A stretch of 30,282 nucleotides of DNA from a virus: positions 1-30,282 of IMG/VR virus record IMGVR_UViG_3300023174_003828; one strand, given 5' to 3'. This document shows positions 584 through 28,763 of this stretch, piece by piece. Positions within the stretch are counted from its first letter, which is position 1. Every line of letters starts with the position of its first letter. The notes under the pieces were generated by a model, which was not told where the DNA came from, ran no database searches, and saw only the letters and a program-made list of their open reading frames with translations. The position numbers and the translations under genes were made by a program.

Positions 584-608
584 AAAAAGCCCCTTAGGGG
601 CTTTTTTT
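584..608. terminator. Bidirectional intrinsic terminator
   Basis: A-run, GCCCC, TTA loop, GGGGC, T-run: a symmetric hairpin with a GC core and seven A/T pairs extending the stem. It gives a U-tract on both strands and sits exactly between two convergent genes (stops at 583 and 607), so it can stop transcription from either side. Confidence 0.92.
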
Positions 609-1446
609 ACGGATTGTTAACTGATTTGATAATCCAATAATCACTACTCATACTAGTATTTGTAACTACATTGAATGGCATATAGAAGTAACCCTTATGA
701 CCCCAATTTGCACCCCAACTGTTTCGTGCAATAAAAACTTTCTTACGCTTATCGTAACCTACAAGCAATACAGCATGACCTCCTAATAGTCGTTCACGTC
801 TAGTATTAGGATATGGCATATTACCGGTCCTTGCTACATGAGCAGACATAAAACTAGTATATACATTAAAACCCATTATAATTGGATAACCATTTGTTAA
901 TGCATCTATACAGCCATTAAAGTCTGATATTCTTTCATAGCGGTTTACTTTACGATTTAATGCATCATTCTTTGCTTCAGTAATAGGTTCTATTTTAAAT
1001 TTACTTATATCATATGGCCATAATGATTCTAAACTTGCACCATAATGATTTGTTACCTTAATACCATCACGTATATAAGCACCACTATCGTAGTTAACTG
1101 TTCCTAATATTAATCGTTCATAATAATATATGAATAGCCTGCTGATATCTTTATAATTACCACTACGTTTGTTTAGTAGTTCTATTGCACCTGCAATTGC
1201 TTGTCCGGTACAGCTACCTAGACTACCTTGATTTTCAATTGGGCTACAATAATTTCTTAAGTCTATTATATTAGGACTTGTTTTAGCTGTTACTTGATAT
1301 TTGTAATCTCTGGGGTCAAGTTTATCTGCTTTCCATATTAACGAAAATTTATCAAGTGTCCTAGGTATAACTTTTTTGTCGGTCGGAGGGTTAAAGGTAT
1401 GATCCTGACTAGTATCAATAATTGTACACGGGTCTTGTTTTGTCAT
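607..1446 (-). CDS. Papain-like cysteine peptidase (C1A family)
   Basis: 279 residues with the complete papain active site: oxyanion Gln73 in ENQGSLGSC, nucleophile Cys79, His224 in GGHAVLLVGY and Asn242 in NSWG. About 60 residues precede the catalytic domain (roughly 60-275); they look too short for a normal cathepsin propeptide. There is no signal peptide, so the enzyme would act in the host cytoplasm or inside the virion. It starts one base after the stop of the giant fibre-like gene and is surely co-transcribed with it, which suggests a role in late gene expression, fibre processing or virion-associated proteolysis. The fold and active site are clear; the target is inferred. No inhibitor gene is visible nearby. 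Confidence 0.9.
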   Translation of the reverse strand: MTKQDPCTIIDTSQDHTFNPPTDKKVIPRTLDKFSLIWKADKLDPRDYKYQVTAKTSPNIIDLRNYCSPIENQGSLGSCTGQAIAGAIELLNKRSGNYKDISRLFIYYYERLILGTVNYDSGAYIRDGIKVTNHYGASLESLWPYDISKFKIEPITEAKNDALNRKVNRYERISDFNGCIDALTNGYPIIMGFNVYTSFMSAHVARTGNMPYPNTRRERLLGGHAVLLVGYDKRKKVFIARNSWGANWGHKGYFYMPFNVVTNTSMSSDYWIIKSVNNP

Positions 1447-5762: not shown

Positions 5763-6089
5763 TCAGGTTGGACTAAAACTTGACCCGCATCCGCATGTAG
5801 TTTCCGCATTAGGATTATTGATTTTGAACTGCGATCCGTTCAAATCTTCAACATAATCTATGCTTGCATTGTGTAAATATTGTGCGGAAATACTGTCTAC
5901 TAACATACTTAAAGATCCTGCAGGTATCTCAAAATCATCGTCATTTTGTTCTTCATCTATAGTAAAACCATATTGCATTCCACTACATCCTCCACCTTGA
6001 ACAAATACACGTATCTTAGCTTTTGGATTGTTTTCTTCTGCTAATATATCAGCTATCTTTATAGAAGCATTTTCTGTTATTTCTATCAT
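5763..6089 (-). CDS. erpA: A-type iron-sulfur carrier, ErpA/IscA family
   Basis: 108 residues covering the whole HesB/IscA domain. The three conserved cysteines are present: Cys35 in [12 protein letters not shown] and Cys99/Cys101 in TTCGCGSSF. The [14 protein letters not shown] ending is closest to ErpA of proteobacteria. Such proteins carry 2Fe-2S or 4Fe-4S clusters from the Isc or Suf scaffold to apo-enzymes in the cytoplasm. The start overlaps the stop of the superoxide dismutase gene by ATGA, so the two are translationally coupled. Together they form an iron-sulfur/oxidative-stress pair that would protect host metabolism or phage Fe-S enzymes during infection. Length is normal and no key residue is missing. 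Confidence 0.93.
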
Positions 6090-6673: not shown

Positions 6674-6883
6674 TTAACGTCGGCGCACGATACGGCCTTT
6701 AGTTAAGTCATATGGACTAAATTCTAATTCTACTGTATCCCCAAGTAGAACTTTAATATCATGCTGGCGCATCTTGCCAGAGATATAACCCATTACATTT
6801 GTGCCATTTACGGTGACACGGAACATGGCGTTAGGCAACACATCAGTTACCGTACCGTCCATTCGTAAACCTTCTTCTTTCAA
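6674..6883 (-). CDS. infA: Translation initiation factor IF-1
   Basis: 69 residues matching bacterial IF-1 (usually 71-73) along its full length: the S1-like OB fold with [39 protein letters not shown]-1 binds the 30S A site and helps IF-2 and IF-3 choose the initiator tRNA. The start is TTG at 6883, supported by AAGGAAAC at proper spacing; the first ATG (6862) would cut off conserved N-terminal residues. The TTG overlaps the stop of GIY-YIG gene I (TTGA), whose last codons contain the infA ribosome site. An IF-1 in a phage is uncommon, though translation factors are known from very large phages. It may steer initiation towards phage mRNAs. Confidence 0.95.
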
Positions 6884-7746
6884 TTTTGTTTCCTTTTTTT
6901 ACCTTCTTTAGAATTGTGAAAGACCCAGTCTTTCTGTTCATCTGAACCCAGTTGTGAATAAAAAATTTCTTTTTCTATTTTTTTAATTTCACCTATTTTA
7001 TTAATACATACAATTTTACCTTTTAGTTTTTCTTTAGTTTCAGCAGTAAACACTTGAAGTTTTCTTTTATCTTTTATTTTTTGTTTAGTTTCATCTTTCA
7101 TTGGTCCTTTATTTTGTTGGGCCAATTTCATTTTTTCAATGGTTTCGGGTGTTTTTTTCTTACCTAAAAGTTTTTCACTTATTTCAGGTCTTTTTCTACC
7201 TCTTAGTTTTTCAGCAGTTTTTTTGACTGATTCTGGGTTTCTTTTTTTCCCGATGTTGGCTTCTGATAGTAGTTTCTTTGTGGCATCGCTTCTTGGCAAT
7301 TTATTTCCGGGATTAACACCCTTTTTTCCTGTATTCCAAGGTAGTTGACCTTGTTTAGATGAAGATATTTTTTGTTTTGTTTCTTCTGTGTGAGGTTCAT
7401 AATTATTTCTACCAGTATCACCACCGTCTAAACCATTTTCTAATACTTGATTAGCCCAAATCTTTTTACCACTTTCATTTATAGCATTTACAATATTGTT
7501 TTCTTTTGAAAAGTTTACAGCAACTTCTACGCATTTTTCTTTATTTTCAAAAAAACCTATTATTTCAGTAGATATATCCTTGCCATGAATTTTTAAGTGG
7601 TTTAACCAATATTCACCTGACCCAGTATAAGAATAAGGATTAGATTTGACAGTTTTTCCAAAATATTTTAAACCGGTAATGTTATGCGTTTTAATATAAA
7701 GATAGGTAGGCATAAATTTCTTCATTAATATATTTATGCCTACCAT
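6880..7746 (-). CDS. GIY-YIG homing endonuclease I with NUMOD3 repeats
   Basis: Residues about 13-105 form a GIY-YIG-type nuclease domain (YLYIKTHN then KYFGKT). Residues about 118-245 are a Lys-rich string of NUMOD3-type DNA-binding units with TKQKIS, GKKR, PESVKK and KTPETIEKM motifs, as in free-standing phage homing enzymes. The N-terminal domain is nearly the same as that of GIY-YIG II (23493-24161), showing recent duplication or shared descent. Starts are ambiguous: ATG 7746 has GGAAA upstream, while ATG 7725 and ATG 7713 lie inside a 13-bp hairpin. The 3' end overlaps infA by TTGA, as expected of a mobile gene inserted between upstream genes and infA. It probably cleaves a related phage genome at the insertion site. 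Confidence 0.88.
7705..7744 (-). promoter_or_regulatory. 13-bp hairpin and late-promoter motif at GIY-YIG I start
   Basis: On the minus strand GGTAGGCATAAAT and ATTTATGCCTACC are perfect 13-bp inverted arms around a 14-base loop. CATAAATA (7738-7731) fits NATAAATA and straddles the 5' arm and loop. ATG 7713 lies in the 3' arm and ATG 7725 in the loop. A late transcript starting about 7 bases after the motif would lack the 5' arm. This is the arrangement known for the T4 I-TevI gene; here it is inferred from sequence. Confidence 0.65.
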
Positions 7747-8874: not shown

Positions 8875-9432
8875 TTATCTATTTAAATAAGGGCCATAAA
8901 TATTTTCTAATTCTTTAATAGTATGATTAGTATTGTTATCTTCATGTTTAACAGCAATTCCACCTGCATCACTCCAAGCATTTAAATACTTACCAAAATC
9001 ATCTACTAAAACATTCTGTTCATTGCCATTCTTTGCATATTTGTATTTTGCACTTGTAAAAATAGCATCACTACTTGTACCTGGATTGTATTTTTCTAAC
9101 CAGTCTTTTTTAGCCCTGATACTATCTTTAGCATATGGGCCACGTAATGGTGCACTTAATACAGTGAATGGAATCTTATGTTGAACTAGCCACTGTATGA
9201 TTCTCATACCACCTAATAATGGTTTCAGGTCATGGAAAAAATCGTACACTTTTTCTGGACTGCTATTTGCTAATTCTTCAATAGCTTGTTCAGGATGAGA
9301 AATTTCTTTGTAATTATTAAGACCATGCATCTTTGCCCAAGCTCCAAAAAAATCAGCTTGTACTCCGTCCATATCTAAGTATAGATGAGGCATTTTTTTG
9401 TTTGTGTCTTCCATTAATTCCCTAAGTTTCAT
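8875..9432 (-). CDS. HAD-like 5'(3')-deoxyribonucleotidase
   Basis: 185 residues with HAD motif I DMDGV (nucleophile Asp20, acid Asp22), motif II Ser93 in VLSAPLRG, and motif IV Asp144/Asp145 in LVDDFGKYL, followed by WSDAGGIAVKHED. This set fits the 5'-nucleotidase C-type branch of phage HAD enzymes, which remove phosphate from (deoxy)nucleoside monophosphates. The start at 9432 has GGAGAAGG at good spacing and shares one base with the upstream stop (TAATG). It probably works with the dCMP deaminase and MazG-like protein elsewhere in the window to adjust nucleotide pools. Substrate specificity is inferred. Confidence 0.82.
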   Translation of the reverse strand: MKLRELMEDTNKKMPHLYLDMDGVQADFFGAWAKMHGLNNYKEISHPEQAIEELANSSPEKVYDFFHDLKPLLGGMRIIQWLVQHKIPFTVLSAPLRGPYAKDSIRAKKDWLEKYNPGTSSDAIFTSAKYKYAKNGNEQNVLVDDFGKYLNAWSDAGGIAVKHEDNNTNHTIKELENIYGPYLNR

Positions 9433-9752
9433 TAACCTTCTCCGCTACTAGCAGACTTATCATCTTCTGATTTCTTAACATTGTTAATCTGCTTTTCTGC
9501 CTCTACACGTTCAAACTCAATTGTTTTACCACGTAAATGTAATACAGTATTAACCTTTTGATTCAATCGTATCAAGTCATTATCTAACATCCTGATACGG
9601 TCAATCAATGCTATCAAAACTGTATTAGCATCACTAATGACTGGCTTAACTTCTTTTGTGGCCCATTCCCAAACGTATTTGATAATGAATCCCATCCCAA
9701 CTGCCATAACAATTGGGAAGCCATATTTATTAATTAGTTCTACTATATCCAT
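9432..9752 (-). CDS. Small single-pass membrane protein
   Basis: 106 residues: a transmembrane helix at about 10-30 (YGFPIVMAVGMGFIIKYVW), then a helical segment (IALIDRIRMLDNDLIRLNQKVNTVL) and a charged, disordered tail. The layout 'GFPI + hydrophobic helix + IDRIRMLDNDLIRL' is repeated in the 93-aa protein at 10478-10759 (ALDNRVKTMNHDVIRID), so the two are diverged paralogues flanking two other genes. Small proteins of this kind sometimes act as holins or spanin-like factors, but no lysis enzyme is adjacent. The start follows the upstream stop by one base with no strong ribosome site, suggesting coupling. Confidence 0.72.
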   Translation of the reverse strand: MDIVELINKYGFPIVMAVGMGFIIKYVWEWATKEVKPVISDANTVLIALIDRIRMLDNDLIRLNQKVNTVLHLRGKTIEFERVEAEKQINNVKKSEDDKSASSGEG

Positions 9753-9753
9753 A

Positions 9754-10290
9754 TTATATCACTAATGGCACAATAAGCCAAATGCCTTGGGCTAATAGAA
9801 GTGCACCGAATGCACTAACACCAATACTACCCCAGAACATGCGCTTATCCACAGCTAAGATACTAGCGGAAAGTAACACAATAGCTAACTGAAATGCCAT
9901 TGCGGCAAATGTCAACCATGGTGTATGCTTCTTAGCTTCATCACGTTCTGCTTCAATCTTTAGTGCTTTAGCCATTAACTCTTTCTTACCCTCACCTTTA
10001 TCAGGTTCACTTTCATATCTTTCAATCTTAGCTTGTAGTTGTTCTTTACGCTTTGGATCGGTTGTAGCTTCTAGTTGTCCTTCAGCAATACTTTGTTTGA
10101 TAGATTTTGCTTGGTAAAAGTTCCAAGTATCATTTGCTTTAATAGTGTTACTTAATATTTTGCTACTAAATCCACTAGACATGTATGTTGTAATTGCCAA
10201 TAGTAATGCAATGACGGTGATGACCCATCCTGCTCTATCTTTAATTTGTGCTTCACGTTCACTGCGTGATAATGGTTTTACTTCTGTCAT
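9754..10290 (-). CDS. DUF4337-like membrane protein
   Basis: 178 residues from the preferred start. There is a first membrane helix at about 22-40 (WVITVIALLLAITTYMS), a long charged helical loop with WNFYQAKSIKQSIAE (the signature block of DUF4337), then two membrane helices at about 122-170. The function of this family is unknown. ATG 10290 is chosen because AAAGGAAA lies at proper spacing; the ATG 6 bases earlier would be too close. The start overlaps the end of the upstream 72-aa gene by about 30 bases. It lies between two paralogous small membrane proteins, which suggests a membrane complex, perhaps for envelope protection or lysis control; this is inference. Confidence 0.78.
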   Translation of the reverse strand: MTEVKPLSRSEREAQIKDRAGWVITVIALLLAITTYMSSGFSSKILSNTIKANDTWNFYQAKSIKQSIAEGQLEATTDPKRKEQLQAKIERYESEPDKGEGKKELMAKALKIEAERDEAKKHTPWLTFAAMAFQLAIVLLSASILAVDKRMFWGSIGVSAFGALLLAQGIWLIVPLVI

Positions 10291-10477
10291 TTTCATTTCC
10301 TTTTAAAATAAATTTTTCTAATCTATCAAGTTTAACTAATTTTTTAACTCCAGTTTCACTATCTTCAACTAATTTGAAATAGTCACCTTCTTCCCAACCT
10401 AATTTATGTATTGGTAATTCTTTGTCAAATACTAAACTATCTGGGGTTAAATCCCATGAATAATCATAATGATACAT
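10259..10477 (-). CDS. Small protein with AbrB-like LGWEEGD core
   Basis: 72 residues, cytoplasmic. The core HKLGWEEGDYFKLVED followed by LVKLDRLEKFI resembles the small AbrB-like protein at 8688-8867, though the DNA-binding part is not clear. Start 10477 is well supported by AGGAGAGACTAA before the ATG, which directly follows the upstream stop. The 3' end overlaps the next gene by about 30 bases. I have seen this pattern in hypothetical proteins of large phages; no function can be given. Confidence 0.68.
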   Translation of the reverse strand: MYHYDYSWDLTPDSLVFDKELPIHKLGWEEGDYFKLVEDSETGVKKLVKLDRLEKFILKGNENDRSKTIITQ

Positions 10478-10759
10478 TTAGTCTCTCCTAGCATCATTTT
10501 TACCGTCAGCACGTGCAATACGATCCGCATCTGGTCTTAATCCTAATGCATTACTAACAATTGTATCAATACGTATAACATCATGGTTCATGGTTTTTAC
10601 ACGATTATCAAGTGCCGTAATGATACCGGCCATGCCTTTTATAGACCCTAAAACACCCTGCAATAGTAGTTTAATAGTCAAATAAACAAAGTATCCACCG
10701 GCTAAAGCGACAGCGATTGGGAACCCCAAATCACCTATAATCTTAAAAATGTCTCCCAT
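10478..10759 (-). CDS. Small single-pass membrane protein, paralogue of 9432-9752
   Basis: 93 residues: a transmembrane helix at about 12-34 (GFPIAVALAGGYFVYLTIKLLL), then an amphipathic helical part (ITALDNRVKTMNHDVIRIDTIV) and a charged C-terminus. It shares the GFPI membrane helix and the 'LDNRV...DVIRI' helix with the 106-aa protein two genes downstream. It is the first gene of the minus-strand membrane group and faces the divergent curli block across an 83-base AT-rich gap. A GATAAATA late motif lies on its strand at 10831-10824. A holin-like or inner-membrane accessory role is possible but not shown. Confidence 0.72.
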   Translation of the reverse strand: MGDIFKIIGDLGFPIAVALAGGYFVYLTIKLLLQGVLGSIKGMAGIITALDNRVKTMNHDVIRIDTIVSNALGLRPDADRIARADGKNDARRD

Positions 10760-10842
10760 ATATGCTCTTTCTATGTATTACACTATATTATTTGATATAA
10801 AATGACTAAATATATGTATAATTATATTTATCGGAGCACATA
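10760..10842. promoter_or_regulatory. Divergent promoter region before the curli block
   Basis: A very AT-rich 83-base gap. On the plus strand TTGATA (10792-10797) and TATAAT (10817-10822) could drive csgF, but the 19-base spacer is long. The csgF ribosome site GGAG (10833-10836) is well placed. On the minus strand GATAAATA (10831-10824) fits the late motif and could drive the membrane-protein group. Boxes are seen; use is inferred. Confidence 0.5.
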
Positions 10843-11325
10843 ATGAAAAGAGGTATAGCAATAAGTACCCTGACGATGCTCACTATATCAGCCTTTGCGG
10901 CTGAATTACAGCATCAGTTTAATAGCCCTAGCTTCAGTGGTTCAGGATATAGTAGCCATGTCCTAACACTAAAACAGTTAGAAGATTTACAAAAAGACAA
11001 AAATAAAGCACTTGCAGACACATTAAAAGCAAAAGCTGAAAGTGAAGCACTAAACACCCCTCAAGCTAAGTTTTTAGCTAACTTAGAATCAAGAATTTAT
11101 AGTCAATTGGCAAAGCAATTGACTGATAGTATGTTTGGTGAAGGATCAACATGCACTACAAAGGGCGTTATTTGTGGATCTATACCTGATTTAGGTGGCA
11201 ATAGTATCACTTGGAAATTAGGTGATGGTAGTGATAATGGATTAATTATTATCACAATTACAAACAATGGCAATCCTTCACAAGTAACTATAATGAAAGT
11301 ACCAGCTGGAACATTTTATTTCTAA
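10843..11325 (+). CDS. csgF: Curli assembly factor CsgF
   Basis: 160 residues with a Sec signal peptide (cleavage near Ala19-Ala20, SAFAA|E). The mature start ELQHQFNSPSFSGSG matches the conserved 'FQFRNPNFGG' N-terminus of CsgF, the part that inserts into the CsgG pore in E. coli. The middle 'LESRIYSQLAKQL' helix and the C-terminal strand region (LIIITITNNGNPSQVTIMKVP) also fit; the protein is slightly longer than E. coli CsgF (138). In bacteria CsgF forms the outer ring of the secretion channel and couples nucleator to polymer growth. Its stop and the csgG start overlap as TAATG. GGAG before the ATG fixes the start. It is the first gene of the plus-strand block. Confidence 0.92.
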   Translation: MKRGIAISTLTMLTISAFAAELQHQFNSPSFSGSGYSSHVLTLKQLEDLQKDKNKALADTLKAKAESEALNTPQAKFLANLESRIYSQLAKQLTDSMFGEGSTCTTKGVICGSIPDLGGNSITWKLGDGSDNGLIIITITNNGNPSQVTIMKVPAGTFYF

Positions 11326-12326
11326 TGAATAAACTACTAATATTATCATTTGTTGTTATGTTATCAGGTTGTGCTTTAAGTAGCAAAACTAACAGTCTAG
11401 TTACAGGTGAACAATTTGATGAACCTATAGTTGAACAGAATGTTTATATGAAAAAGGACGATAATAAATTACGTCCTCCGGCTGATGGTCCAATTGCAAT
11501 TGCAGTATATGGATTTGCTGATAAGACCGGGCAACGTAAAAGCATTCAAAATATTGCTAGTTTAAGTTCAGCAGTAACTCAAGGTGCTGAAAGTTATCTA
11601 ATCAAAGCATTACAGGACGTAGGTGATGCTAAATGGTTTATTGTATTAGAACGTGTTGGATTAGAAAATATAATTAAAGAACGACAGATGATACGTCAAG
11701 CACGTGAGCTATATCAAGGTCGTGATGCCAAACCTTTACCACCAATGGTATTCGCCGGAGTATTAGTTGAAGGTGGTATTATTGGATATGATAGTAATAC
11801 ATTGACGGGCGGATCCGGAGTAAGATTATTAGGTATAGGAACAAGTACACAATATCAAAGTGATACAGTAACCGTCAATTTACGAACAGTAAGTGTTAGT
11901 ACCGGTGAAGTATTAACCAGTGTAACCGTTACAAAAACCGTATTAAGTTATATGGACAAAGTAGGTGTATTGCGTTTTAAGGCAGAAGGCACAAGTAGCG
12001 TTGAAGCTGAAACTGGTGCTAGTATTAATGAGAGTATTAATAAAGCCACAAGTATAGCTATACAAGCGGCAGTTATAGATACAATACGTGAAGGCGCTAG
12101 AAAAGGACATTGGAATTTTAAACAAGAGGAGAAAAAAAATGAGTTGGTTCAAGAGAAAACCCCACCTAAAGACACCCCCAAAATTACAACCGCACCATCT
12201 AAGCCCAATATCGGAAAAACTATTGAAGGAAACGAAAAAAGAAGTTTCTGGAGTAAAATCAAAGATGAAATTACAAGATTCACAATTGAGCATAGTGACG
12301 GAAAAGAAGAAGAATTAACAGATTAA
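11325..12326 (+). CDS. csgG: Curli secretion channel lipoprotein CsgG
   Basis: 333 residues. A lipoprotein signal with lipobox LSGC (Cys16) indicates acylation and outer-membrane insertion. The CsgG domain spans about 55-265 with IAIAVYGFADKTGQRK, FIVLERVGLENIIKERQ, GVLVEGGIIGYDSN and TVTVNLRTVSVSTGEVL, all family landmarks. CsgG forms a nonameric beta-barrel pore that exports curli subunits. The last about 65 residues are a Lys/Pro/Glu-rich extension not present in E. coli CsgG, probably periplasmic and disordered. It is coupled to csgF by a one-base overlap. Finding the export pore and CsgF together with two curlin-repeat proteins makes a functional amyloid export system likely. Confidence 0.95.
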   Translation: MNKLLILSFVVMLSGCALSSKTNSLVTGEQFDEPIVEQNVYMKKDDNKLRPPADGPIAIAVYGFADKTGQRKSIQNIASLSSAVTQGAESYLIKALQDVGDAKWFIVLERVGLENIIKERQMIRQARELYQGRDAKPLPPMVFAGVLVEGGIIGYDSNTLTGGSGVRLLGIGTSTQYQSDTVTVNLRTVSVSTGEVLTSVTVTKTVLSYMDKVGVLRFKAEGTSSVEAETGASINESINKATSIAIQAAVIDTIREGARKGHWNFKQEEKKNELVQEKTPPKDTPKITTAPSKPNIGKTIEGNEKRSFWSKIKDEITRFTIEHSDGKEEELTD

Positions 12327-12438
12327 CATATGTTTGTTAGATTATTCCTACAGTCTAACAAATATCTAAAAAAGAAGTAGGAAATAATAAGGGATAAATC
12401 CCAAGGAGCGTAATCAGGATAACTGATTACTGTAAAAA
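12327..12438 (+). promoter_or_regulatory. Structured leader before the first curlin gene
   Basis: This 112-base gap has three hairpins: TTTGTTAGA/TCTAACAAA (12333-12341 with 12354-12362); GGGA-TAAA-TCCC (12391-12402); and GTAATCAG/CTGATTAC (12410-12430, loop GATAA). The only good Shine-Dalgarno, AAGGAG (12403-12408), is between hairpins two and three, 30 bases from the ATG. Folding the third hairpin brings it to about 9 bases. This looks like a structured ribosome-binding site and possible control point. Confidence 0.65.
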
Positions 12439-13206
12439 ATGAAGCATTATAAAAATTATAAGACGGTGCTTTCAATATTAGCATTATCATTGCTAAGTGT
12501 AACTAGTATGGCACAGGTATTAAATACCGCAACAGGGCCAAATAAAGTTTATATTGAACAAATTGGTAACACTAATACTATTACACTTGAACAAACAGGT
12601 GGTACTAATAATATTGGAGGTGTAGCCAACGTTACCCCCAGCAATACAAACTATGCCACAATAACCGGCAATAGTAACGTTGTTGCTATGGTTCAAAAAG
12701 GTGATAACAACTTAGGTCAATATAATATTAGAGGTAACAATAACGAATATACAAGTACTGTTACTGGAAATAATAACAAAACTAAGTTAACTGTCGGTGA
12801 TGCCCAAAACACAAATAACCTACGTAACATTATTACTGAAACCATTACTGGTAATGACAATACTGTTATTCAAAATATTATTGGCAACGATATATTAAGT
12901 ACATTAACTATTACAGGTGACACCAATGAAGTTACTAAGGATCTAAAAAGCACTAACGGTAGAAGTGACATTAGTATCACCGGTGATAATAACAAACTTG
13001 ACATTGAACAAAATGATGCTAGTGGTGCGAACGGTCATAATTTGAAAAAAGTTATTCAAGGTAACACTAATAGCATTGTAACTCAACAGCAAGGTACTAA
13101 TGATACTACTATTGATATTAAAGCCAATGGTGACAATAATACCATTACAGTTCGTACAACAAGCGCGGCTACCATTGCAAACCCAAGAACAGCAGTAGCA
13201 AGATAA
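12439..13206 (+). CDS. Curlin-repeat amyloid subunit 1 (CsgA/CsgB-like)
   Basis: 255 residues: Sec signal peptide to about residue 25 (SVTSMAQ), then a serial beta-solenoid-like sequence with repeats of about 22-25 residues rich in Asn, Thr, Gly, Ile and Gln (YIEQIGNTNTITLEQTG, GDNNLGQYNI, GNNNKTKLTV, GDNNTITV). The Q-x-G-x-x-N pattern is the curlin signature. The mature N-terminus VYIEQIGN is shared with subunit 2 (14463-14930). It is preceded by the export genes csgF and csgG, so it is the likely major exported fibre subunit. Translation starts after an unusual hairpin-separated ribosome site. It is about 100 residues longer than E. coli CsgA. Confidence 0.85.
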   Translation: MKHYKNYKTVLSILALSLLSVTSMAQVLNTATGPNKVYIEQIGNTNTITLEQTGGTNNIGGVANVTPSNTNYATITGNSNVVAMVQKGDNNLGQYNIRGNNNEYTSTVTGNNNKTKLTVGDAQNTNNLRNIITETITGNDNTVIQNIIGNDILSTLTITGDTNEVTKDLKSTNGRSDISITGDNNKLDIEQNDASGANGHNLKKVIQGNTNSIVTQQQGTNDTTIDIKANGDNNTITVRTTSAATIANPRTAVAR

Positions 13207-13207
13207 A

Positions 13208-14296
13208 ATGCGTAAGTTTGTGTTGTTCTTATGCTTGTTTACAAGTATTAGTACTTGGGCAAGTATAGGAAATGTATCAGAATTAACCGGGGCAGCCGGC
13301 GAAATATCCCGCGGTAAACAAAAAGTTGTGGGTAATAAAGGCGCCGGCATTGAAAGCAACGATATATACACTACTAGAAACGGCACAGTACAATTAGCCT
13401 TTAAGGATGATACAAAAGTAAAAATTACAGAAAACAGTCGTCTACTAATAGATGATTTTGTTTTTGACCCTAACAAAAGTGATGCAGGTAGATTAGCACT
13501 TAAAGTTGGTATGGGAACAGTACGTTATGCTAGTGGACAAATAGCAAAAACAAACACACAACAAGTAGCAATTAAAACACCAACTGCAACTATTGCAGTT
13601 CGTGGTACAGATTTTACAATGACAGTTGATGAAGCAGGACAGTCATTAATAGTTTTAGTTCCAAGTTGTAAAGACAATGAAAAAGTAAAAGATTACGAAT
13701 TAGAAGAAAACAAATGTAGAGTAGGACGCATTGAAGTAGAGACCTTAGTTGGTAAAGTTATATTGGACCAAGCATTTCATGGTACATTTGTAGCAAGTAA
13801 TAACATTTCACCTACCACACCGGTCGTTATGAATACAATTGAAGCAAAACTAACAAACAACTTGATTATTGTAAAGCCAATGGAGATTGTTAAAGCAGTT
13901 AATAATCAAAATGGTAAAAGTAAAAAAGAACAACAAGAACTAGAAGAAGAACAAAACAATAGATTAACCAACATAGTTAAAAAACAAAGTGTTGAAGAAC
14001 AAGCAAAGATTATTGCCGCTAATAGTTTTAAACCCGATCCAAACTGTAATGCAACAACTACTGTTTGTATCTTATGGGAAAAAAGTGACGGTGAATTATT
14101 AGCTAGAGGTAGAGCTATAGCGTATCGTAATAGTGAAAACGAACATTATGCTGAAGTTAAAACACAGGGTTATATGTCAAACACACTAGTTACCATTGTA
14201 CACAATGACACCATAGCATCAGAACTTTTAGGTGATGGTCAGCCCGGTGGAAATATAGTGTATATCAAACAAACTGCGGGATTAAAAAGAAGATGA
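13208..14296 (+). CDS. Secreted FecR-domain protein
   Basis: 362 residues with a Sec signal peptide (cleavage near residue 18, STWAS). Residues about 20-160 form a FecR domain (TGAAGEISRGKQ, GTVQLAFKDDTKVKITENS, IAVRGTDFTMTVD). A Lys/Glu/Gln-rich coiled region (about 235-270) and a C-terminal beta domain follow. Stand-alone secreted FecR proteins are often found beside CHASE2-cyclase genes in bacteria, and one is present in this operon. It starts one codon after the curlin gene and ends in an ATGA overlap with a 57-aa gene. Its job is unknown; periplasmic or surface binding linked to curli or to the cyclase sensor is inferred. Confidence 0.85.
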   Translation: MRKFVLFLCLFTSISTWASIGNVSELTGAAGEISRGKQKVVGNKGAGIESNDIYTTRNGTVQLAFKDDTKVKITENSRLLIDDFVFDPNKSDAGRLALKVGMGTVRYASGQIAKTNTQQVAIKTPTATIAVRGTDFTMTVDEAGQSLIVLVPSCKDNEKVKDYELEENKCRVGRIEVETLVGKVILDQAFHGTFVASNNISPTTPVVMNTIEAKLTNNLIIVKPMEIVKAVNNQNGKSKKEQQELEEEQNNRLTNIVKKQSVEEQAKIIAANSFKPDPNCNATTTVCILWEKSDGELLARGRAIAYRNSENEHYAEVKTQGYMSNTLVTIVHNDTIASELLGDGQPGGNIVYIKQTAGLKRR

Positions 14297-14466
14297 CTAG
14301 TAAAGAGTTACAAATAATGTACCAACAATGGTGCCAGGGAAATGAGGATCACGGATTTCGTTGGTTAGACTTTGTTGAAATGGCAGCAAGACAATTCAAA
14401 CATCCAGAAAGTGAAGTACTTAGAGAGTTACAGAAACATTATTGGTTCGTTAAAAATAACAAATGA
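14293..14466 (+). CDS. 57-aa unrecognised cytoplasmic protein in the amyloid operon
   Basis: A short reading frame joined to both neighbours by ATGA overlaps (start over the FecR stop at 14293, stop over the next ATG at 14463), strong evidence that it is translated. The protein is helical with FRWLDFVEMAARQF and EVLRELQKHYWFVK, and has no signal peptide or membrane helix, unlike all its neighbours up to this point. I do not recognise the family. It may be a cytoplasmic chaperone or regulator for curlin export, or only a passenger. Confidence 0.75.
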   Translation: MTSKELQIMYQQWCQGNEDHGFRWLDFVEMAARQFKHPESEVLRELQKHYWFVKNNK

Positions 14467-14930
14467 AAAAGATACTACTATCATTATTATTTTCTAGTTC
14501 AGCATTTTCTCAAGTGTATATTGAGCAAATAGGTAACTTCAATGTTGTTAATGTAGAACAGATTGGTAACGGAATCAACTATATTAACTACTATAGTGCT
14601 GGCTCTAATAATAATGTAACCATGGAACAGCGTAGCACCGGTGGCAATAAATCAATACAAGCTACTGTAAACAATAGTAACAACACAGTTCTGTTACAAC
14701 AAAAAGACAACGGAAATCATTCTATCATATTAAACTTAGTTGGTGGACATAAAGATGTAGACATATTACAGCAGGGAAGTGCTGGACATCAAGCAAATGT
14801 AACATTGACCGGATTACCATCTGGTATAAGTTTAAGTCAAAGTGGATCTACCCAGCAATTATACTCATTAACCTTTAACTGTGCTATACAGGGTGGATGT
14901 GCCAAATTGTCAGTACAACAGGGCCAATAG
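14463..14930 (+). CDS. Curlin-repeat amyloid subunit 2 (CsgB/CsgA-like)
   Basis: 155 residues: signal peptide to about residue 16 (SSSAFSQ), then VYIEQIGNFNVVNVEQIGNG and further Gln/Asn/Gly repeats of about 22 residues (NNNVTMEQ, NNTVLLQQKDNG, KDVDILQQGSAG). The size and repeat number are close to E. coli CsgA and CsgB (151). The C-terminus has a cysteine pair (FNCAIQGGCAKL) that could form a disulfide. With the larger curlin protein upstream this gives a two-subunit set; which one nucleates and which polymerises cannot be told. Start ATG overlaps the 57-aa gene stop. Confidence 0.85.
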   Translation: MKKILLSLLFSSSAFSQVYIEQIGNFNVVNVEQIGNGINYINYYSAGSNNNVTMEQRSTGGNKSIQATVNNSNNTVLLQQKDNGNHSIILNLVGGHKDVDILQQGSAGHQANVTLTGLPSGISLSQSGSTQQLYSLTFNCAIQGGCAKLSVQQGQ

Positions 14931-14937
14931 ATAAATA
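14930..14937 (+). promoter_or_regulatory. Late-promoter motif GATAAATA
   Basis: GATAAATA overlaps the curlin-2 stop codon region and lies 42 bases before the Fn3 gene start. It fits NATAAATA of T4-like phages. A TGGTG-GTTT-CACCA hairpin (14950-14963) and the ribosome site AAGGAAA follow. This would allow separate late expression of the downstream gene. Confidence 0.5.
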
Positions 14938-14979
14938 TATGAATATTAATGGTGGTTTCACCAATAAGGAAAGAATAAA

Positions 14980-16026
14980 ATGCAAATAGGAAGCGGAATA
15001 ACATTTACTAGTGGCCTTACTTTAACTGCACCCCCAACAGCACCATCGGCACCTACAATAGGTACAGCAACAGCTACCGGTGCAACAACAGCAACAGTGA
15101 CCTTCACTGCTCCTGTTAATAATGGCGGTGCAACAATTACAAGCTATACAGCAACAAGTAGTCCTGGTAGTATTACTGGTACACTAAGTCAAGCCGGATC
15201 CGGAACAATCACTGTTTCTGGATTAACTGCGAGTACAAGTTATACATTTACAGTAACTGCTACTAATAGTGTGGGTACAAGTAGTGCAAGTAGCGCAAGT
15301 AATAGCATTACAACAGAAAGTGCGGCAGTAGGACAACAAGAATTTACTACAACAGGAACATTTTCATTTACAGTCCCTGCAGGGGTGTCGTCTATATGCG
15401 CTGTACTAGTTGGTGGAAGAGGTACTAGTCAAAACGGCGGAGCCAAGGGAGGCAGAGGTGGAGCAGGACTACGATATATCAATAACTTAGCAGTTATACC
15501 CGGTGATGTATATACAGTGGTAGTGGCAGGCGCGGGTGGCAATTCGTCTTTAAGTAAAGGGGGCAATACTTACGTGCAAGCAAACTCCGGCGGCAGTAGT
15601 GGGGCAGGTGGTACCGGAACTGCTTTTGGAGCTGGTCCTTTTGGTGGTACAATAGGTGGTGGTAATGGCGGAGCTGGAGGGCCAGCGCCAGGAACTGGTT
15701 TTGCTGCCACTGGAGGAGCCGGAGGGTATTCAGGTGACGGAGGGTATGGTGGTGGCGGTGGACAAGATGGCGGAGCCGGATCCGGAGGAGCCGGAGGTGG
15801 TGGCGGTGGTTCAAGTCTTAACACTGTTGGACCGGGCAATGGAGGATTAGTGGGCATTTATGGACAAGGTGCTAGTGGTGCCGGTGGTACTGGTGGTGGT
15901 GCGCCTACATCAGGTGGTGCTGGATCTGGTGGTGGCTTTGGTGGATTCCCGGGTGGTGACGGAGCAGTTCGTATTATTTGGGGATCAGGTCGTGCCTTCC
16001 CATCAACTAACACCGGTAATTTATAA
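14980..16026 (+). CDS. Fibronectin-III plus glycine-rich fibre/adhesin-like protein
   Basis: 348 residues without a signal peptide. Residues about 20-112 form one fibronectin type III domain (PTAPSAPTIGTATATG, ASTSYTFTVTATNSVG). A short beta segment (GTFSFTVPAGVSSICAVLVGG) leads into a glycine-rich region (about 145-340) with GGAGG, GGGGG and GAGG runs, as in phage fibre and adhesin proteins that may pack as polyglycine-II helices. Because it lacks an export signal while the curli proteins have one, it is more likely a virion component than a curli part. A late-promoter motif just upstream supports separate late expression. The ribosome site is AAGGAAAGAATAAA. Confidence 0.75.
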   Translation: MQIGSGITFTSGLTLTAPPTAPSAPTIGTATATGATTATVTFTAPVNNGGATITSYTATSSPGSITGTLSQAGSGTITVSGLTASTSYTFTVTATNSVGTSSASSASNSITTESAAVGQQEFTTTGTFSFTVPAGVSSICAVLVGGRGTSQNGGAKGGRGGAGLRYINNLAVIPGDVYTVVVAGAGGNSSLSKGGNTYVQANSGGSSGAGGTGTAFGAGPFGGTIGGGNGGAGGPAPGTGFAATGGAGGYSGDGGYGGGGGQDGGAGSGGAGGGGGGSSLNTVGPGNGGLVGIYGQGASGAGGTGGGAPTSGGAGSGGGFGGFPGGDGAVRIIWGSGRAFPSTNTGNL

Positions 16027-16035
16027 ACTATTTGT

Positions 16036-18087
16036 ATGATTAAAAAAATAATTCTCAGTCCTTGGACAGCACTACTAACACTAGTGCTGATTCTTTCTGT
16101 GCGTATCGCAGATCCTCAATTCGTAGAATCAGTTCGTTTACGTTATTTTGATACTCTTATCACTAATAAAACCCCAACAGAAAACAACATCTATACAGTA
16201 AATATAGATGAAGCAACACTAGACAAGTATGGTCAATGGCCACTACCTCGTAATGAATACGCAAAAATAATAGAAGATTTATATAAGCGCAACGCTGGTC
16301 TTGTTGTGTTCAATGTACTAATGCCTGATACTGATAGAAACGGTCAAGACAGTAAGTTAGCAAATACAATGAAACAGTATCCTGTTATTCTTCCCAATGT
16401 ACCTAGCGATAAAACAAAAAACACTCCACGTAATCCAGGTGCGGCTGTACTAGCCCCTGAGTGGCTAGATCAAATAGTTCAATATCCCGGTATCATTGCT
16501 AACGTGCCTTTATTAGAAAACAGTGCGTATGGTGTAGGTACTGTTAATACATTACCAGAGATTGATGGTGTCAATAGACGTATACCATTGATTGTCAGTG
16601 TTGATGGTAAACTCTATCCAAGTTTAAGTATGGAAGTATTAAGAGTAGCCGCAGATGATACAACATTCCAAGTTAAACTAAGCGAGAATGGTGTAGAGAA
16701 AATGCGTATACCAAAGTTCGGTCCTATTACTACTGACAACTTAGGACGTATTTGGATTGATTACAGTCAACAAAGTAAATCAGTAAGTTTGATGGATCTA
16801 CCAAAAGACTTCGGTGGTGCTATTGTTATTGTAGGTTTAACAGCAAGTGGATTAAACAACCCAGTACCAACAAGTAAAGGTAGTGTATGGCCGCATGATG
16901 TTCAAGCAAGTGTAATAGGTACAATGTTTAACAAAGTTGTTATTGTAAGACCTGATTATGCAGATGGTGTAGAACTTATCGCTATACTAGTGTTAGGTTT
17001 ATTAGTTATATTTTTATCAAGGTGGACATATGCTTTTATCCCAGTTATTCTTGTTCTTACTTCTGGTCATTTTATTGCGTCATATCTATTCACATCCAAT
17101 CTATGGCTCTATGATATTACCGCCCCTATTATTGGCGTTGGTTTGGTTTATCTTCACGCTTATACTGTTAAGTTTGTAAGTGAATTCTTACAAAAGCAAC
17201 AGATTAAAAAACAGTTTGGTAGTTACGTTAATCCAACAATCGTTGAACGACTACAGAAAGATCCTAGTCTAATTAAACTTGGTGGTGAGAAACGTGAATT
17301 ATCTATCGTTATGACTGACTTGCGTGGCTTCACTAGCTTGGGCGAATCATTTGGCGATGATGTTGAAGGACTAACACAGATTATGAATGACTACATGACT
17401 GCACTAAGTGTTCCTGTATTGAAGAACGATGGTACATTAATTAAGTTTATTGGTGATGCAAGTTTGCATGTCCATGGCGCCCCATTAGATGATGTTAAAC
17501 ATGCGGTAACTGCTGTTAATACCGCTATGCAAATGATTGATGCTATTGAAGAATTCAATAAAGAGTTGACAGCTAATGGTCGTCCACCAGTTGGTATGGG
17601 CGCAGGTGTTAATACTGGTGAAACGTTGATTGGTAACATTGGTGCTAAGACTAAGTTTGGTTATGATGTATTAGGCGACAGTGTTTCTACTGCGGCTAGA
17701 TTAGAAGGACAAACTAAAGGATATGGTGTATTATGTATCATTGGCCCTAATACTAATGAACAGGTTAAAGATGAAATATTTACACTAGAACTAGATTGTA
17801 TTGCTGTAAAGGGTAAAACAATAGGATTAAATATCTTTACCCCATTAAAGACTGATCCAAATAGTATGGCGGAATATCTATCAGCACGTGAGATACATGA
17901 TTTGATGATAGATTACTACCGTGAGCAGAAATGGGACCAAGCATTACATATGATAGACCAACTTAAGGGTGAATTTGATTCGCATATGGACCACTATTAT
18001 GATATAATGATAGAACGAATAGGAGAACTACGTGAAAGCAATTTACCTAACGATTGGGATGGTGTGTATAGGGCTACTAGTAAGTAA
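16036..18087 (+). CDS. CHASE2-domain membrane adenylate cyclase (class III)
   Basis: 683 residues. One N-terminal membrane helix (about 8-22), an extracytoplasmic CHASE2 sensor (about 28-300; IDEATLDKYGQWPLPRNEY and IVGLTASGL are typical), two or three membrane helices (about 312-378), a linker, then a class III cyclase domain (about 420-605). Metal residues Asp428 and Asp474 and ATP-selecting Lys470 and Asp544 are present. Arg555 of the transition-state pair is kept, but its usual Asn partner is Ser551 (GDSVSTAARLE), which may lower activity. It would make cAMP in the cytoplasm in response to a periplasmic signal, perhaps with the FecR-type protein upstream. A membrane cyclase in a phage-like context is very unusual. 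Confidence 0.92.
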   Translation: MIKKIILSPWTALLTLVLILSVRIADPQFVESVRLRYFDTLITNKTPTENNIYTVNIDEATLDKYGQWPLPRNEYAKIIEDLYKRNAGLVVFNVLMPDTDRNGQDSKLANTMKQYPVILPNVPSDKTKNTPRNPGAAVLAPEWLDQIVQYPGIIANVPLLENSAYGVGTVNTLPEIDGVNRRIPLIVSVDGKLYPSLSMEVLRVAADDTTFQVKLSENGVEKMRIPKFGPITTDNLGRIWIDYSQQSKSVSLMDLPKDFGGAIVIVGLTASGLNNPVPTSKGSVWPHDVQASVIGTMFNKVVIVRPDYADGVELIAILVLGLLVIFLSRWTYAFIPVILVLTSGHFIASYLFTSNLWLYDITAPIIGVGLVYLHAYTVKFVSEFLQKQQIKKQFGSYVNPTIVERLQKDPSLIKLGGEKRELSIVMTDLRGFTSLGESFGDDVEGLTQIMNDYMTALSVPVLKNDGTLIKFIGDASLHVHGAPLDDVKHAVTAVNTAMQMIDAIEEFNKELTANGRPPVGMGAGVNTGETLIGNIGAKTKFGYDVLGDSVSTAARLEGQTKGYGVLCIIGPNTNEQVKDEIFTLELDCIAVKGKTIGLNIFTPLKTDPNSMAEYLSAREIHDLMIDYYREQKWDQALHMIDQLKGEFDSHMDHYYDIMIERIGELRESNLPNDWDGVYRATSK

Positions 18088-18358
18088 CTCCTACTCACAG
18101 GAAATGAAGGACAAGGTTGAAATAGAGTTACCTTGTTATGATTCAACTGCGTTATTCAAAACATTAAGAGAAAATCACAAAGAGATGCCCATAATGATGG
18201 GTAAAGCTAGTGATGATGTTAAGTCTATAGTCAGTATTTGGATAAATCCAATTGATAACAATTGGACTATAATAGCAACTAAAAATGATCTATCATGTGT
18301 TGTAGGATTGGGGAACGACATGAAACTCGTACCCTATAAGAAAGGACCTAATATATGA
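18032..18358 (+). CDS. Small secreted protein, unrecognised
   Basis: 108 residues starting at GTG 18032, supported by AGGAG six bases upstream, so the gene overlaps the cyclase end by 56 bases in another frame. The N-terminus is a signal peptide (AIYLTIGMVCIGLLVSNSYS|Q). The mature part is about 85 residues with two cysteines (Cys in ELPCYDS and DLSCVVG) that could pair, and the segment IVSIWINPIDNNWTIIATKN. This looks like a small periplasmic protein; no family is recognised. It is joined to the downstream peptidase by ATGA. A role as ligand or modulator of the CHASE2 cyclase or of the peptidase is speculation from position. Confidence 0.72.
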   Translation: MKAIYLTIGMVCIGLLVSNSYSQEMKDKVEIELPCYDSTALFKTLRENHKEMPIMMGKASDDVKSIVSIWINPIDNNWTIIATKNDLSCVVGLGNDMKLVPYKKGPNI

Positions 18359-19089
18359 TTAAAAAACTAATAGCAATATTATCATTGTCTATCTGTTCAG
18401 CATATGCAGATACACCATTAACTGCACAAGCCTGGTTAGTAGCTGATAATAATGGGAAGATTCTTGAAGGGTCTAATACTACTGAGATTCGTAGCATAGC
18501 AAGTATTACTAAATTAATGACAGCAATGGTTGTATTAGATAGTGGTCAATCATTAACTGAAATACTTCCTAAAAAGCTATACAATAAACAATTAAGTAGA
18601 GAAACATTAATTGATTTGGCGATTGTAAAAAGTGATAATAATGCCGCAAAATTGTTATGTGATTATTATCCCGGTGGATATAAAAATTGCATAGAAGCGA
18701 TGAATGCCAAAGCAATATCATTGCAGATGGGTAACAGTAATTTTACTGATCCTACTGGTAGATATCATACTAATGTAAGTACTGCACAAGATTTAATCAA
18801 ATTAGTATTGGCAGCCAGCACCTACCCATTAATTGTTCACGCAAGTAATATGGATGCTGTACGTTGGAGTATTAATAAGAAGAAAAATATAGAATTTAGA
18901 AACACAAACAGTTTAGTTGGTAATGGTTATAAATTCTTAGTAAGTAAAACAGGTTTTATCAATAAAGCAGGTGGATGTATTGTAATGATGATTGATACTG
19001 CAAATGGAATCAGGACCGTAGTCCTGTTGGGTTCAAAGAATACTAAAACACGTATCCCAGAAGCAAAGATGTTATCTATGCTTTATTAA
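18355..19089 (+). CDS. pbpG: PBP7-like D-alanyl-D-alanine endopeptidase (S11 family)
   Basis: 244 residues: signal peptide (to about residue 18, SAYAD), then a serine DD-peptidase domain with all three motifs: Ser50-Ile-Thr-Lys53 (SxxK), Ser93-Asp-Asn95 (SxN) and Lys198-Thr-Gly200 (KTG). The segment YYPGGYKNCIEAMNAKA matches E. coli PBP7 (PbpG) more than PBP5/6, and it lacks the long C-terminal anchor region of those. PBP7 cuts D-Ala-mDAP cross-links in the periplasm. Here it could open the wall for the curli channel, aid lysis or remodel the envelope after infection. It is the last gene of the plus block; its stop overlaps the convergent minus gene. Confidence 0.9.
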   Translation: MIKKLIAILSLSICSAYADTPLTAQAWLVADNNGKILEGSNTTEIRSIASITKLMTAMVVLDSGQSLTEILPKKLYNKQLSRETLIDLAIVKSDNNAAKLLCDYYPGGYKNCIEAMNAKAISLQMGNSNFTDPTGRYHTNVSTAQDLIKLVLAASTYPLIVHASNMDAVRWSINKKKNIEFRNTNSLVGNGYKFLVSKTGFINKAGGCIVMMIDTANGIRTVVLLGSKNTKTRIPEAKMLSMLY

Positions 19090-23413: not shown

Positions 23414-23492
23414 TATCTTTTGGTCACCTAGTTTAATTTAGATATCCAAAAACTTCGTATATATTGTGCATGTGTCCGTGTTAAATATTAAC

Positions 23493-24161
23493 ATGTTTAA
23501 ACCTACCTACTTATATATTAAAACACATAATATCACTGGACTAAAATACTTTGGTAAGACAACAAAGGACCCGCAGAAATATGATGGTTCAGGAATTAAG
23601 TGGCTTAATCACTTAAACGTACACGGAAAAGATGTAAAAACAGATATCCTAGGATATTATACGGATAAGGAAGAATGTTTAAGAATTGCATTAGAGTTCA
23701 GCCACAAAAATAATATAGTAGAATCATCAAATTGGGCAAATTTGCGAGTTGAATCATTGGATGGCGGAGACACAAGTAATACTGAAAATTTTAAAAATTG
23801 GATACCTAGACTAATACAAGAAAACAAAAAAAGACGATGGTGGAATAATGGAGTTTCTCAGGTCTTTGTTGACGTACCACCCGATGATAACTTTTTAAAA
23901 GGTAGATTACCTTTTAATAACTTAGGTGCAAAAAAAGGTTCTGCTATGCAAAAAGGAAAAATTTGGGTAAATAATGGTATTACTGAGTATATGACAGATA
24001 CCGAAGTATCTACAGGATTTTTAAAAGGTAGGTTAAAAGAAAAGGCGTTTAATAGACAGCAAGGCCTACACACTGTAGGAACCAAATGGTGGAATAATGG
24101 AATGAAATCAACTATGGCAAAAGAGTGTCCTGGTCCTGAGTGGACTCTGGGTAGACTTTAA
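23493..24161 (+). CDS. GIY-YIG homing endonuclease II with WWNNG repeats
   Basis: 222 residues from ATG 23493; the frame can be extended to GTG 23466 but without support. Residues 4-92 are a GIY-YIG-type domain ([30 protein letters not shown]) almost identical in key blocks to GIY-YIG I at 6880. The C-terminal half differs completely: three units beginning W(W/V)NNG and ending in (F/W)LKGRL or WTLGRL at about 116-140, 158-181 and 199-222, in place of NUMOD3. They probably bind DNA. The gene is oriented against its neighbours and its stop overlaps the metallophosphatase stop, as expected for a recent insertion. A short TGTTAA/TTAACA hairpin covers the start. Confidence 0.85.
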   Translation: MFKPTYLYIKTHNITGLKYFGKTTKDPQKYDGSGIKWLNHLNVHGKDVKTDILGYYTDKEECLRIALEFSHKNNIVESSNWANLRVESLDGGDTSNTENFKNWIPRLIQENKKRRWWNNGVSQVFVDVPPDDNFLKGRLPFNNLGAKKGSAMQKGKIWVNNGITEYMTDTEVSTGFLKGRLKEKAFNRQQGLHTVGTKWWNNGMKSTMAKECPGPEWTLGRL

Positions 24162-25081: not shown

Positions 25082-25110
25082 ATTTTAACACAGGAATAAA
25101 TTTATGTCAA
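25082..25110 (-). promoter_or_regulatory. Strong sigma70-type promoter of the metallophosphatase
   Basis: The minus strand reads TTGACA (25110-25105), 17 bases, TAAAAT (25087-25082). Expected start near 25075, some 15 bases before ATG 25060. The -35 box overlaps the first codons of the divergent GIY-YIG III gene. Confidence 0.75.
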
Positions 25111-25796
25111 TCTATTGTGTATATCTAACTATATATATGGGTAAAAAGTTACCCATGTTTTATATTGGATCTTCTACCTTAACCAAAATTAAGAATGGAT
25201 ATAGGGGGTCTGTATCTAGTAAAAATTATGGTAAAATTTGGAAAGAAGAATTGAAAAATAACCCTGAATTATTTAAAACAAAAATAATATCATTACATGA
25301 TTCTAGGGAACAAGCATTTGATAAAGAAGAAAAACTACAAAAAATATTAAATGTAGTTAAAAACTCATTATACATAAACAAATCATTTGCCAATTCTAAA
25401 TTTAGTTTGAAACAGCATTCGGCTTGGACAAGGGATAAGTTTAAAACTAGGGTGCCATGGAACAAAGGAAAAACTGATATTTACTCTGATACCACATTAG
25501 AGAAAATGAGTTTTTCTAAAAAAGGTAAATCAAGGCCATGCAGTGATGAAACTAAAATAAAATTAAGTGGACCAAACCCAGCAAAAGCAAATGTTGGTGA
25601 AAAAAATGGTATGTTCAACAAAACTCACACTGATGTAGTTAAAAATAAATTAGGGGCAGAAGCCTCTAAGAGGTTCAAAGGTAAATCATATGAAGAATTA
25701 TATGGTCCTGAAAAGGCGGCTGAACTAAAAAAAATAAGGTCTGAGAGAATGAAAGAGATTAGGAAAAATAAAAAGGATATTTTATTACTTTCATAA
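25104..25796 (+). CDS. GIY-YIG homing endonuclease III with NUMOD3 repeats
   Basis: 230 residues. The nuclease domain (about 3-95) has YCVYL and FYIGSST as the GIY and YIG blocks and the acidic helix FDKEEKLQ. It is followed by NUMOD3-type units (VPWNKGKTD, SDETKIKLSG, NGMFNKTHTDVVKNKL) and a terminal SYEELYGPEKAAELKKIRSER helix common in phage homing enzymes. It is only distantly related to GIY-YIG I and II. Start ATG 25104 has AGGA at 8 bases. Plus orientation between minus genes, with overlapping stops at its 3' end, indicates an inserted mobile gene. An 8-bp hairpin occurs early in the coding region (25137-25156). Confidence 0.88.
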   Translation: MSIYCVYLTIYMGKKLPMFYIGSSTLTKIKNGYRGSVSSKNYGKIWKEELKNNPELFKTKIISLHDSREQAFDKEEKLQKILNVVKNSLYINKSFANSKFSLKQHSAWTRDKFKTRVPWNKGKTDIYSDTTLEKMSFSKKGKSRPCSDETKIKLSGPNPAKANVGEKNGMFNKTHTDVVKNKLGAEASKRFKGKSYEELYGPEKAAELKKIRSERMKEIRKNKKDILLLS

Positions 25797-28703: not shown

Positions 28704-28763
28704 GTCCTTTATTTAACTGTCTAAGATTGTATTATAGACCCAAAATGATTTATTGTCAAATTT
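28704..28763 (-). promoter_or_regulatory. Repeated promoter/leader, copy 4
   Basis: The minus strand has TTGACA (28759-28754), 17 bases, TATAAT (28736-28731), and the same leader with AAAGGACTC. Slightly more diverged in the spacer than copies 1-3. The clpP stop lies at its upstream edge. Confidence 0.9.

Follow-up and report, generated by a model that had tools for sequence, protein, structure and literature searches.

The stretch of DNA examined here (the window) is a complete virus record, 30,282 bases long. Its plus strand carries, from nucleotide (nt) 10843 to 19089, an unbroken run of co-directional genes that includes a curli-type gene set. The run opens with a CsgF homologue bearing a Sec signal (10843–11325; PF10614, E-value 1.1e-7, a match that passes the curated cut-off; phrog_35372, 1e-32) and the pore lipoprotein CsgG (11325–12326; PF03783, 2.9e-51; lipobox LSGC). 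These are followed by curlin-1, a CsgA/B-like protein with a Sec signal and beta-solenoid repeats (12439–13206; PF07012, 4e-7), a secreted protein with a FecR domain (13208–14296; PF04773, 7.4e-11; phrog_37870, 2e-72), an open reading frame (ORF) of 57 amino acids (aa) read from its translation, with relatives at 38–91% identity in 18 loci (14293–14466), and curlin-2, which has a Sec signal and a C-terminal YSLxxNC...GC tail and is recognised by its family profile (14463–14930). The run extends past nt 14930, and includes a CHASE2 sensor joined to a class III adenylate cyclase (16036–18087; PF05226, 9e-40; PF00211, 3e-17; phrog_35576, 7e-226). The order csgF-csgG-curlin-fecR-curlin-cyclase is that of the pelagiphage-type module, and the occurrence of this gene set in the window is far beyond chance.

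An initial annotation of the sequence had described CsgF, CsgG and two curlin-repeat proteins with Sec signals as co-directional, adjacent and tightly coupled. Profile matches bear out the families, while adjacency holds for csgF and csgG but not for the two curlin genes, which are separated by the FecR gene and the 57-aa ORF. The coupling was also correct in part: csgF and csgG overlap by TAATG, the 57-aa ORF has an ATGA overlap on both sides (with fecR and with curlin-2), and the gap between curlin-1 and fecR is 1 nt, but csgG and curlin-1 are 112 nt apart and so not tightly coupled. Most products of the run carry a Sec-type or lipoprotein signal; none is evident on the 57-aa ORF or on a fibronectin type III (Fn3) and Gly-rich protein encoded further downstream.

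The CsgG family profile matches the solved E. coli CsgG at 3e-64, and the sequence marks CsgG as an outer-membrane lipoprotein of the pore type, with CsgF as its partner. The CsgF of the window is 45% identical to that of Pelagibacter phage HTVC008M, and a profile of the CsgF family gave no match in the PDB. The CsgG of the window has a C-terminal extension of about 60 aa; among phages, the tail that follows the GxW motif is between 2 and 169 aa long. In a CsgG tree of 122 rows, built by a quick method, the phage group was split from 41 cellular rows with a Shimodaira–Hasegawa-like approximate likelihood ratio test (SH-aLRT) value of 100, with six rows labelled as cellular falling on the phage side. 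The window sequence belongs to a phage-only clade of 16 (support 97), apart from the small branch inside the phage group that is formed by HTVC008M and Methylophilales phage Melnitz.

The family profile of curlin-1 matches the solved curlin 8c50 at 1.4e-16 and E. coli CsgA (8enq) at 3.7e-5. The curlin-2 sequence alone has no Pfam match; its family profile matches the same solved curlins (8c50, 1.3e-44; 8enq, 1.9e-6), and its C-terminus is conserved in HTVC008M and Melnitz. In the curlin alignments, the invariant columns coincide with the Q, G and N residues of the repeat. AlphaFold gave a beta-solenoid for curlin-1 and an all-beta repeat model for curlin-2, both with a mean predicted local distance difference test score (pLDDT) of 82. 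By prediction, the fibre subunits are these two curlins, beta-solenoids exported by Sec. The hallmarks of both pore and curlins are intact, which eases the concern raised at the outset that these might be variants unable to form a pore or fibre. Ratios of nonsynonymous to synonymous substitution (dN/dS), calculated by the Nei-Gojobori method on close pairs, were about 0.12 for curlin-1, 0.13 for CsgG, 0.10 for CsgF and 0.11 for FecR; for curlin-2 they were 0.08–0.13 in the usable pairs of the window clade and 0.21 overall. Curlin-1 is as constrained as the pore, and this counts against a pore kept for lysis alone.

The gene set is common: one scan turned up CsgG relatives in 457 viral contigs. 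Where the locus had room, CsgF was present in 139 of 139 cases, a curlin directly downstream of CsgG in 137 of 137, FecR in 123 of 123, a second curlin in 76 of 116 and the cyclase in 90 of 98; these counts are not independent, as some contigs entered twice and every locus was picked for closeness to the window. Five loci that were scored as lacking a curlin by the script have one that overlaps csgG by 67–76 nt. The second-curlin slot is occupied in a 364-kb phage contig with the csg cassette (L032, 12921–14972) by a secreted autotransporter (PF03797, 7e-13), and in other phages by large signal-bearing proteins (L021, L034, L057 and L078). In the isolate collection, CsgG relatives were limited to HTVC008M, four Melnitz strains and a 1.5-kb unannotated Salmonella phage record. 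Judging from these comparisons, the curli set is a conserved module that extends well beyond the published marine phages, to a far broader range of large phages. The suggestion that it is not a recent bacterial scrap agrees with the phage-specific CsgG clade, the retention of one gene order in about 137 loci, and purifying selection.

Two small membrane proteins accompany the module. In the window they are encoded on the minus strand upstream of csgF, one of 93 aa (10478–10759; phrog_18771) and the second, its paralogue, of 106 aa (9432–9752). In the window clade the pair lies upstream of the module and is transcribed divergently from it; in many other phages it lies downstream and is convergent, while in HTVC008M and Melnitz it sits just ahead of the module in the same direction. 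The 106-aa protein joins the 93-aa protein in all 40 fully flanked loci. Within the isolate collection, the 93-aa protein occurs only in the same six records (two species) as CsgG, and 22 of 23 viral records picked by the 93-aa gene contain CsgG. An apparent absence of CsgG from 18 loci near the 93-aa gene reflected the limit of the flanks examined, as 17 of the 18 whole records have it. Homologues of the 93-aa protein were collected by BLAST without filters, and the protein was found in none of 385 alphaproteobacteria. From this distribution, the pair is a previously unrecognised, phage-specific set of predicted partners of the module. It may correspond to the 'histidine kinase, sometimes two' reported to precede the modules of podoviral, not T4-like, pelagiphages of the HTVC023P type (PMC9599517), to which it is likened by description only; no kinase domain was found in the 93-aa or 106-aa proteins, and the 93-aa protein shows only a sub-threshold YvrJ-like start. 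A two-transmembrane DUF4337 protein (9754–10296, minus strand) is encoded between the two in the window and in one relative (G002) only.

A TAAATA hexamer on the plus strand (10807–10812), within CTAAATAT, lies 36 nt upstream of csgF and is a putative late-type promoter element. In 75 of the 112 distinct loci, csgF is preceded by TAAATA at a distance of 10–50 nt, as are 159 of 1871 other ORFs (8.5%), an enrichment whose P value is inflated by shared ancestry. It was not above background before csgG, the curlins, fecR or the cyclase. In HTVC008M, the exact T4 late-promoter sequence, TATAAATA, is situated 13 nt upstream of csgF, as it is before many virion genes, and TAAATA precedes 14 of 25 virion genes against 5 of 16 others. 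The exact TATAAATA occurs as a single copy in the window, not near csgF, and so the broader TAAATA test was used. These data suggest that the operon would be expressed late in infection.

No FecI or FecA gene was found in the annotated window, and the module FecR, a FecR domain behind a Sec signal and nothing more, does not appear to be an iron-citrate anti-sigma regulator. The metal-binding Asp pair, substrate Lys and transition-state Arg of the cyclase are conserved in all 108 phage homologues, and the window enzyme has every catalytic residue, including the substrate Asp/Thr, except the transition-state Asn. The families of CsgG, FecR and the CHASE2-cyclase originated in cells. In the scan, bacterial csg operons mostly comprised csgF, csgG and curlins and had neither FecR nor cyclase; Hyphomonas sp. 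TMED17, by contrast, carries csgF-csgG-curlin-fecR-cyclase (L209, 9354–15377) on a 705-kb contig surrounded by ordinary bacterial genes. This five-gene core has the same order as in the window, at 30–47% identity, but is cellular and has one long curlin, and the 93/106-aa pair is nowhere in the genome; in the tree its CsgG joins the phage group close to the base, by a long branch. The FecR-cyclase pairing is therefore not purely viral, contrary to the statement that FecR and adenylate cyclase do not occur in bacterial curli operons (PMC9599517). Among about 680 alphaproteobacteria sampled, Hyphomonas TMED17 was the only cellular source of the FecR type to stand out, in a search whose query alignment included its own FecR. 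In three other 'bacterial' matches (L199, L202 and L277) the membrane pair adjoins csgF; these are probably misbinned phage contigs.

The remaining genes of the run lie around the cyclase gene. The Fn3 and Gly-rich protein (14980–16026; PF00041, 4e-9; phrog_4474, 7e-40; weak matches to tail families) is encoded at different positions in different phages and is not a fixed part of the module. After the cyclase come a small secreted protein with a signal-like N-terminus (18032–18358; homologues in up to 27 loci, 15 by BLAST) and, joined to it by an ATGA overlap, an S11 D,D-carboxypeptidase with a Sec signal and the SxxK, SxN and KTG motifs (18355–19089; PF00768, 2.7e-36). About a fifth of loci have the carboxypeptidase (35 of 164 sequences), usually after the cyclase.

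The window is collinear over nearly its full length, and across both borders of the module, with an independently assembled viral contig of 101 kb (G001) that encodes a T4-type polymerase; in the locus search their CsgG proteins were 87% and their cyclases 94% identical. A 343-kb contig (G020) has about 20 further genes in common with the window, and carries T4-type TerL, portal, prohead protease, major capsid, sheath and DNA polymerase genes. T4-type virion or replication genes are absent from the 30-kb window itself but present in these syntenic and gene-sharing relatives. The cassette also occurs in other viral contigs of 200–364 kb, several of which have a terminase. By synteny and shared genes, the record is that of a phage, probably one of the T4-like large phages. 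For the first 25 kb of the window, the isolate collection held no near-identical phage. As the initial annotation had supposed, the flanks proved to be those of a phage and not of a bacterium, and its remark on base composition also held: the GC content of the module resembles that of the rest of the window, except for the Gly-rich gene at 15–16 kb (51% GC).

Phage curli modules were published in 2020–2022 and are discussed in three papers (PMC7029224, PMC9004378, PMC9599517), and other surveys of marine phages mention CsgG as well (PMC7003362, PMC7198788). CsgA/B, FecR and adenylate cyclase were explicitly identified in myoviral and podoviral pelagiphages, with expression of the pelagiphage version in metatranscriptomes (PMC9599517). 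The novelty implied for the window locus does not stand, as pore and curlins were already annotated in HTVC008M and Melnitz; the module is known in kind, and what is new here is its distribution, the constraint on the curlins, the promoter element and the partner genes. HTVC008M (KC465899) shares the order csgF, csgG, curlin, fecR, curlin, adenylate cyclase, with curlins annotated in GenBank and two small membrane proteins ahead of csgF. Its proteins are 24–55% identical to those of the window, which differs in its inverted upstream membrane pair, its short curlin-2, and the additional 57-aa ORF, Fn3/Gly-rich protein, small secreted protein and S11 carboxypeptidase. Melnitz (MZ577097; PMC9004378) likewise has the same order, both curlins, FecR and cyclase, but belongs to another CsgG branch and has other neighbours. 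The type VIII secretion system of HTVC023P-type podoviruses is arranged csgF-csgG-csgA/B-fecR(-csgA/B-AC), where AC is adenylate cyclase (PMC9599517). The enterobacterial csgBAC/csgDEFG system has CsgG, CsgF and curlin-repeat subunits in common with the window, which differs in being one operon, with FecR and the CHASE2-cyclase inside it; no CsgE was found. No annotated gene of the window resembles CsgC or CsgD, for which no profile search was made.

Taken together, the locus is probably a phage-encoded type VIII (curli) secretion module that exports a surface amyloid from the infected cell late in infection, and we regard the export of fibres as a probable function. From the late-type promoter before csgF, the pore would be made late; the curlins, exported by the host Sec system, would leave by way of CsgG-CsgF with no CsgE involved, and then polymerise at the infected cell's surface. 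The cyclase may sense the periplasm or envelope, possibly via FecR, with cyclic AMP tuning host or phage expression, and the 93/106-aa pair would probably be an inner-membrane accessory of curli export. The most likely benefit to the phage is that progeny, debris and neighbouring hosts are held together around lysis ('sibling capture', proposed in PMC7029224, where CsgF and CsgG were reported), with exclusion of competitors next. The initial annotation proposed that a coat of fibres could affect biofilm, cell clumping, superinfection or release. We suggest more tentatively that phages across this clade share a system of their own, separate from bacterial curli, in which the phage-specific inner-membrane pair (93/106 aa) and the FecR-CHASE2-cyclase sensor would drive CsgE-free curli export late in infection; the terminal surface product (second curlin, autotransporter or Fn3/Gly-rich protein) would be swapped from phage to phage, and a surface matrix would form on the infected cell around lysis.

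Several observations weigh against fibre export. CsgE, noted as missing at the outset, was not found by profile search in any of 27 phage records, including the nearest relatives (E. coli control positive), and is likewise absent from known phage modules (PMC9599517). Foldseek found no significant PDB match for either curlin model, so that the assignment of the curlin fold rests on sequence profiles and on the secondary structure of the models themselves. Curlin-2 of the window is short (155 aa), and the late timing is deduced from the enrichment of a motif among loci that are related. The window cyclase and 59 of 108 homologues have Ser in place of the transition-state Asn, which may reduce activity. 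Finally, Melnitz showed no clumping in cytograms or by transmission electron microscopy under the conditions of its authors (PMC9004378).

Some of these points would equally suit a repurposed pore, in which CsgG and CsgF time lysis in the manner of a pinholin or secretin and the curlin genes are irrelevant, as was proposed for Melnitz when csgA/B were thought to be missing (PMC9004378). Without CsgE the pore may be ungated, and the late-type element before csgF, the envelope character of the neighbouring 93/106-aa proteins and S11 carboxypeptidase, and the lack of clumping in Melnitz cultures all fit. The lipobox, however, marks CsgG as a pore of the outer membrane, while it is the inner membrane that pinholins depolarise, and curlins are kept in every locus under the same constraint as the pore. 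The stated lack of csgA/B in Melnitz is contradicted by its own GenBank record, which annotates two curlin-repeat proteins (L003, 12857–15651), and a lysis timer is unlikely. We give a similarly low probability to superinfection exclusion, in which the main role of fibres, or of swapped adhesins, on the cell surface would be to keep competing phages out: surface products, and an adhesin slot that varies and can hold an autotransporter, are expected of surface-modifying genes, yet exclusion is usually most useful early and csgF has a late-type promoter element. That an open CsgG pore admits nutrients or cofactors, as proposed in PMC7029224 and PMC9599517 and in keeping with the absence of CsgE, is very improbable, as it leaves unexplained why curlins are universal and constrained, and why CsgF and the surface-protein slot are there. 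A chimeric assembly or bacterial contamination, which the cellular origin of the CsgG, FecR and CHASE2-cyclase families might have suggested, is ruled out by the synteny with the 101-kb contig across both borders; two cultured phages also have homologues, as do phage contigs of 200–364 kb that carry T4-type terminase and capsid genes.

The published debate is between a pore only and a full fibre system. Curlins that are always retained and under purifying selection, together with the adhesin slot and a late-type element before csgF, favour the fibre and make the debate testable, and the 93/106-aa pair is a concrete new target. If fibre export is correct, infected cells that grow amyloid would change views of lysis, clumping and particle formation in water.

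Elsewhere in the window, no tRNA genes were found, and no Rfam elements, including the glutamine riboswitch type of Melnitz. Three homing-endonuclease-like genes (6880–7746, minus strand; 23466–24161 and 25104–25796, plus strand), the first matching phrog_314 homing endonuclease, are probably recent insertions, because they are absent from the syntenic contigs G001 and G004. A complete ClpP protease (28762–29358, minus strand; PF00574, 2.5e-81) has the look of a canonical ClpP rather than of a prohead protease, and relatives keep it at 71–82%. A papain-family C1 cysteine peptidase (607–1446, minus strand) adjoins a repetitive protein of 1210 aa that has no family match and is a possible tail fibre. 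An A-type iron-sulphur carrier protein (5763–6089, minus strand; PF01521) is kept in related phages.

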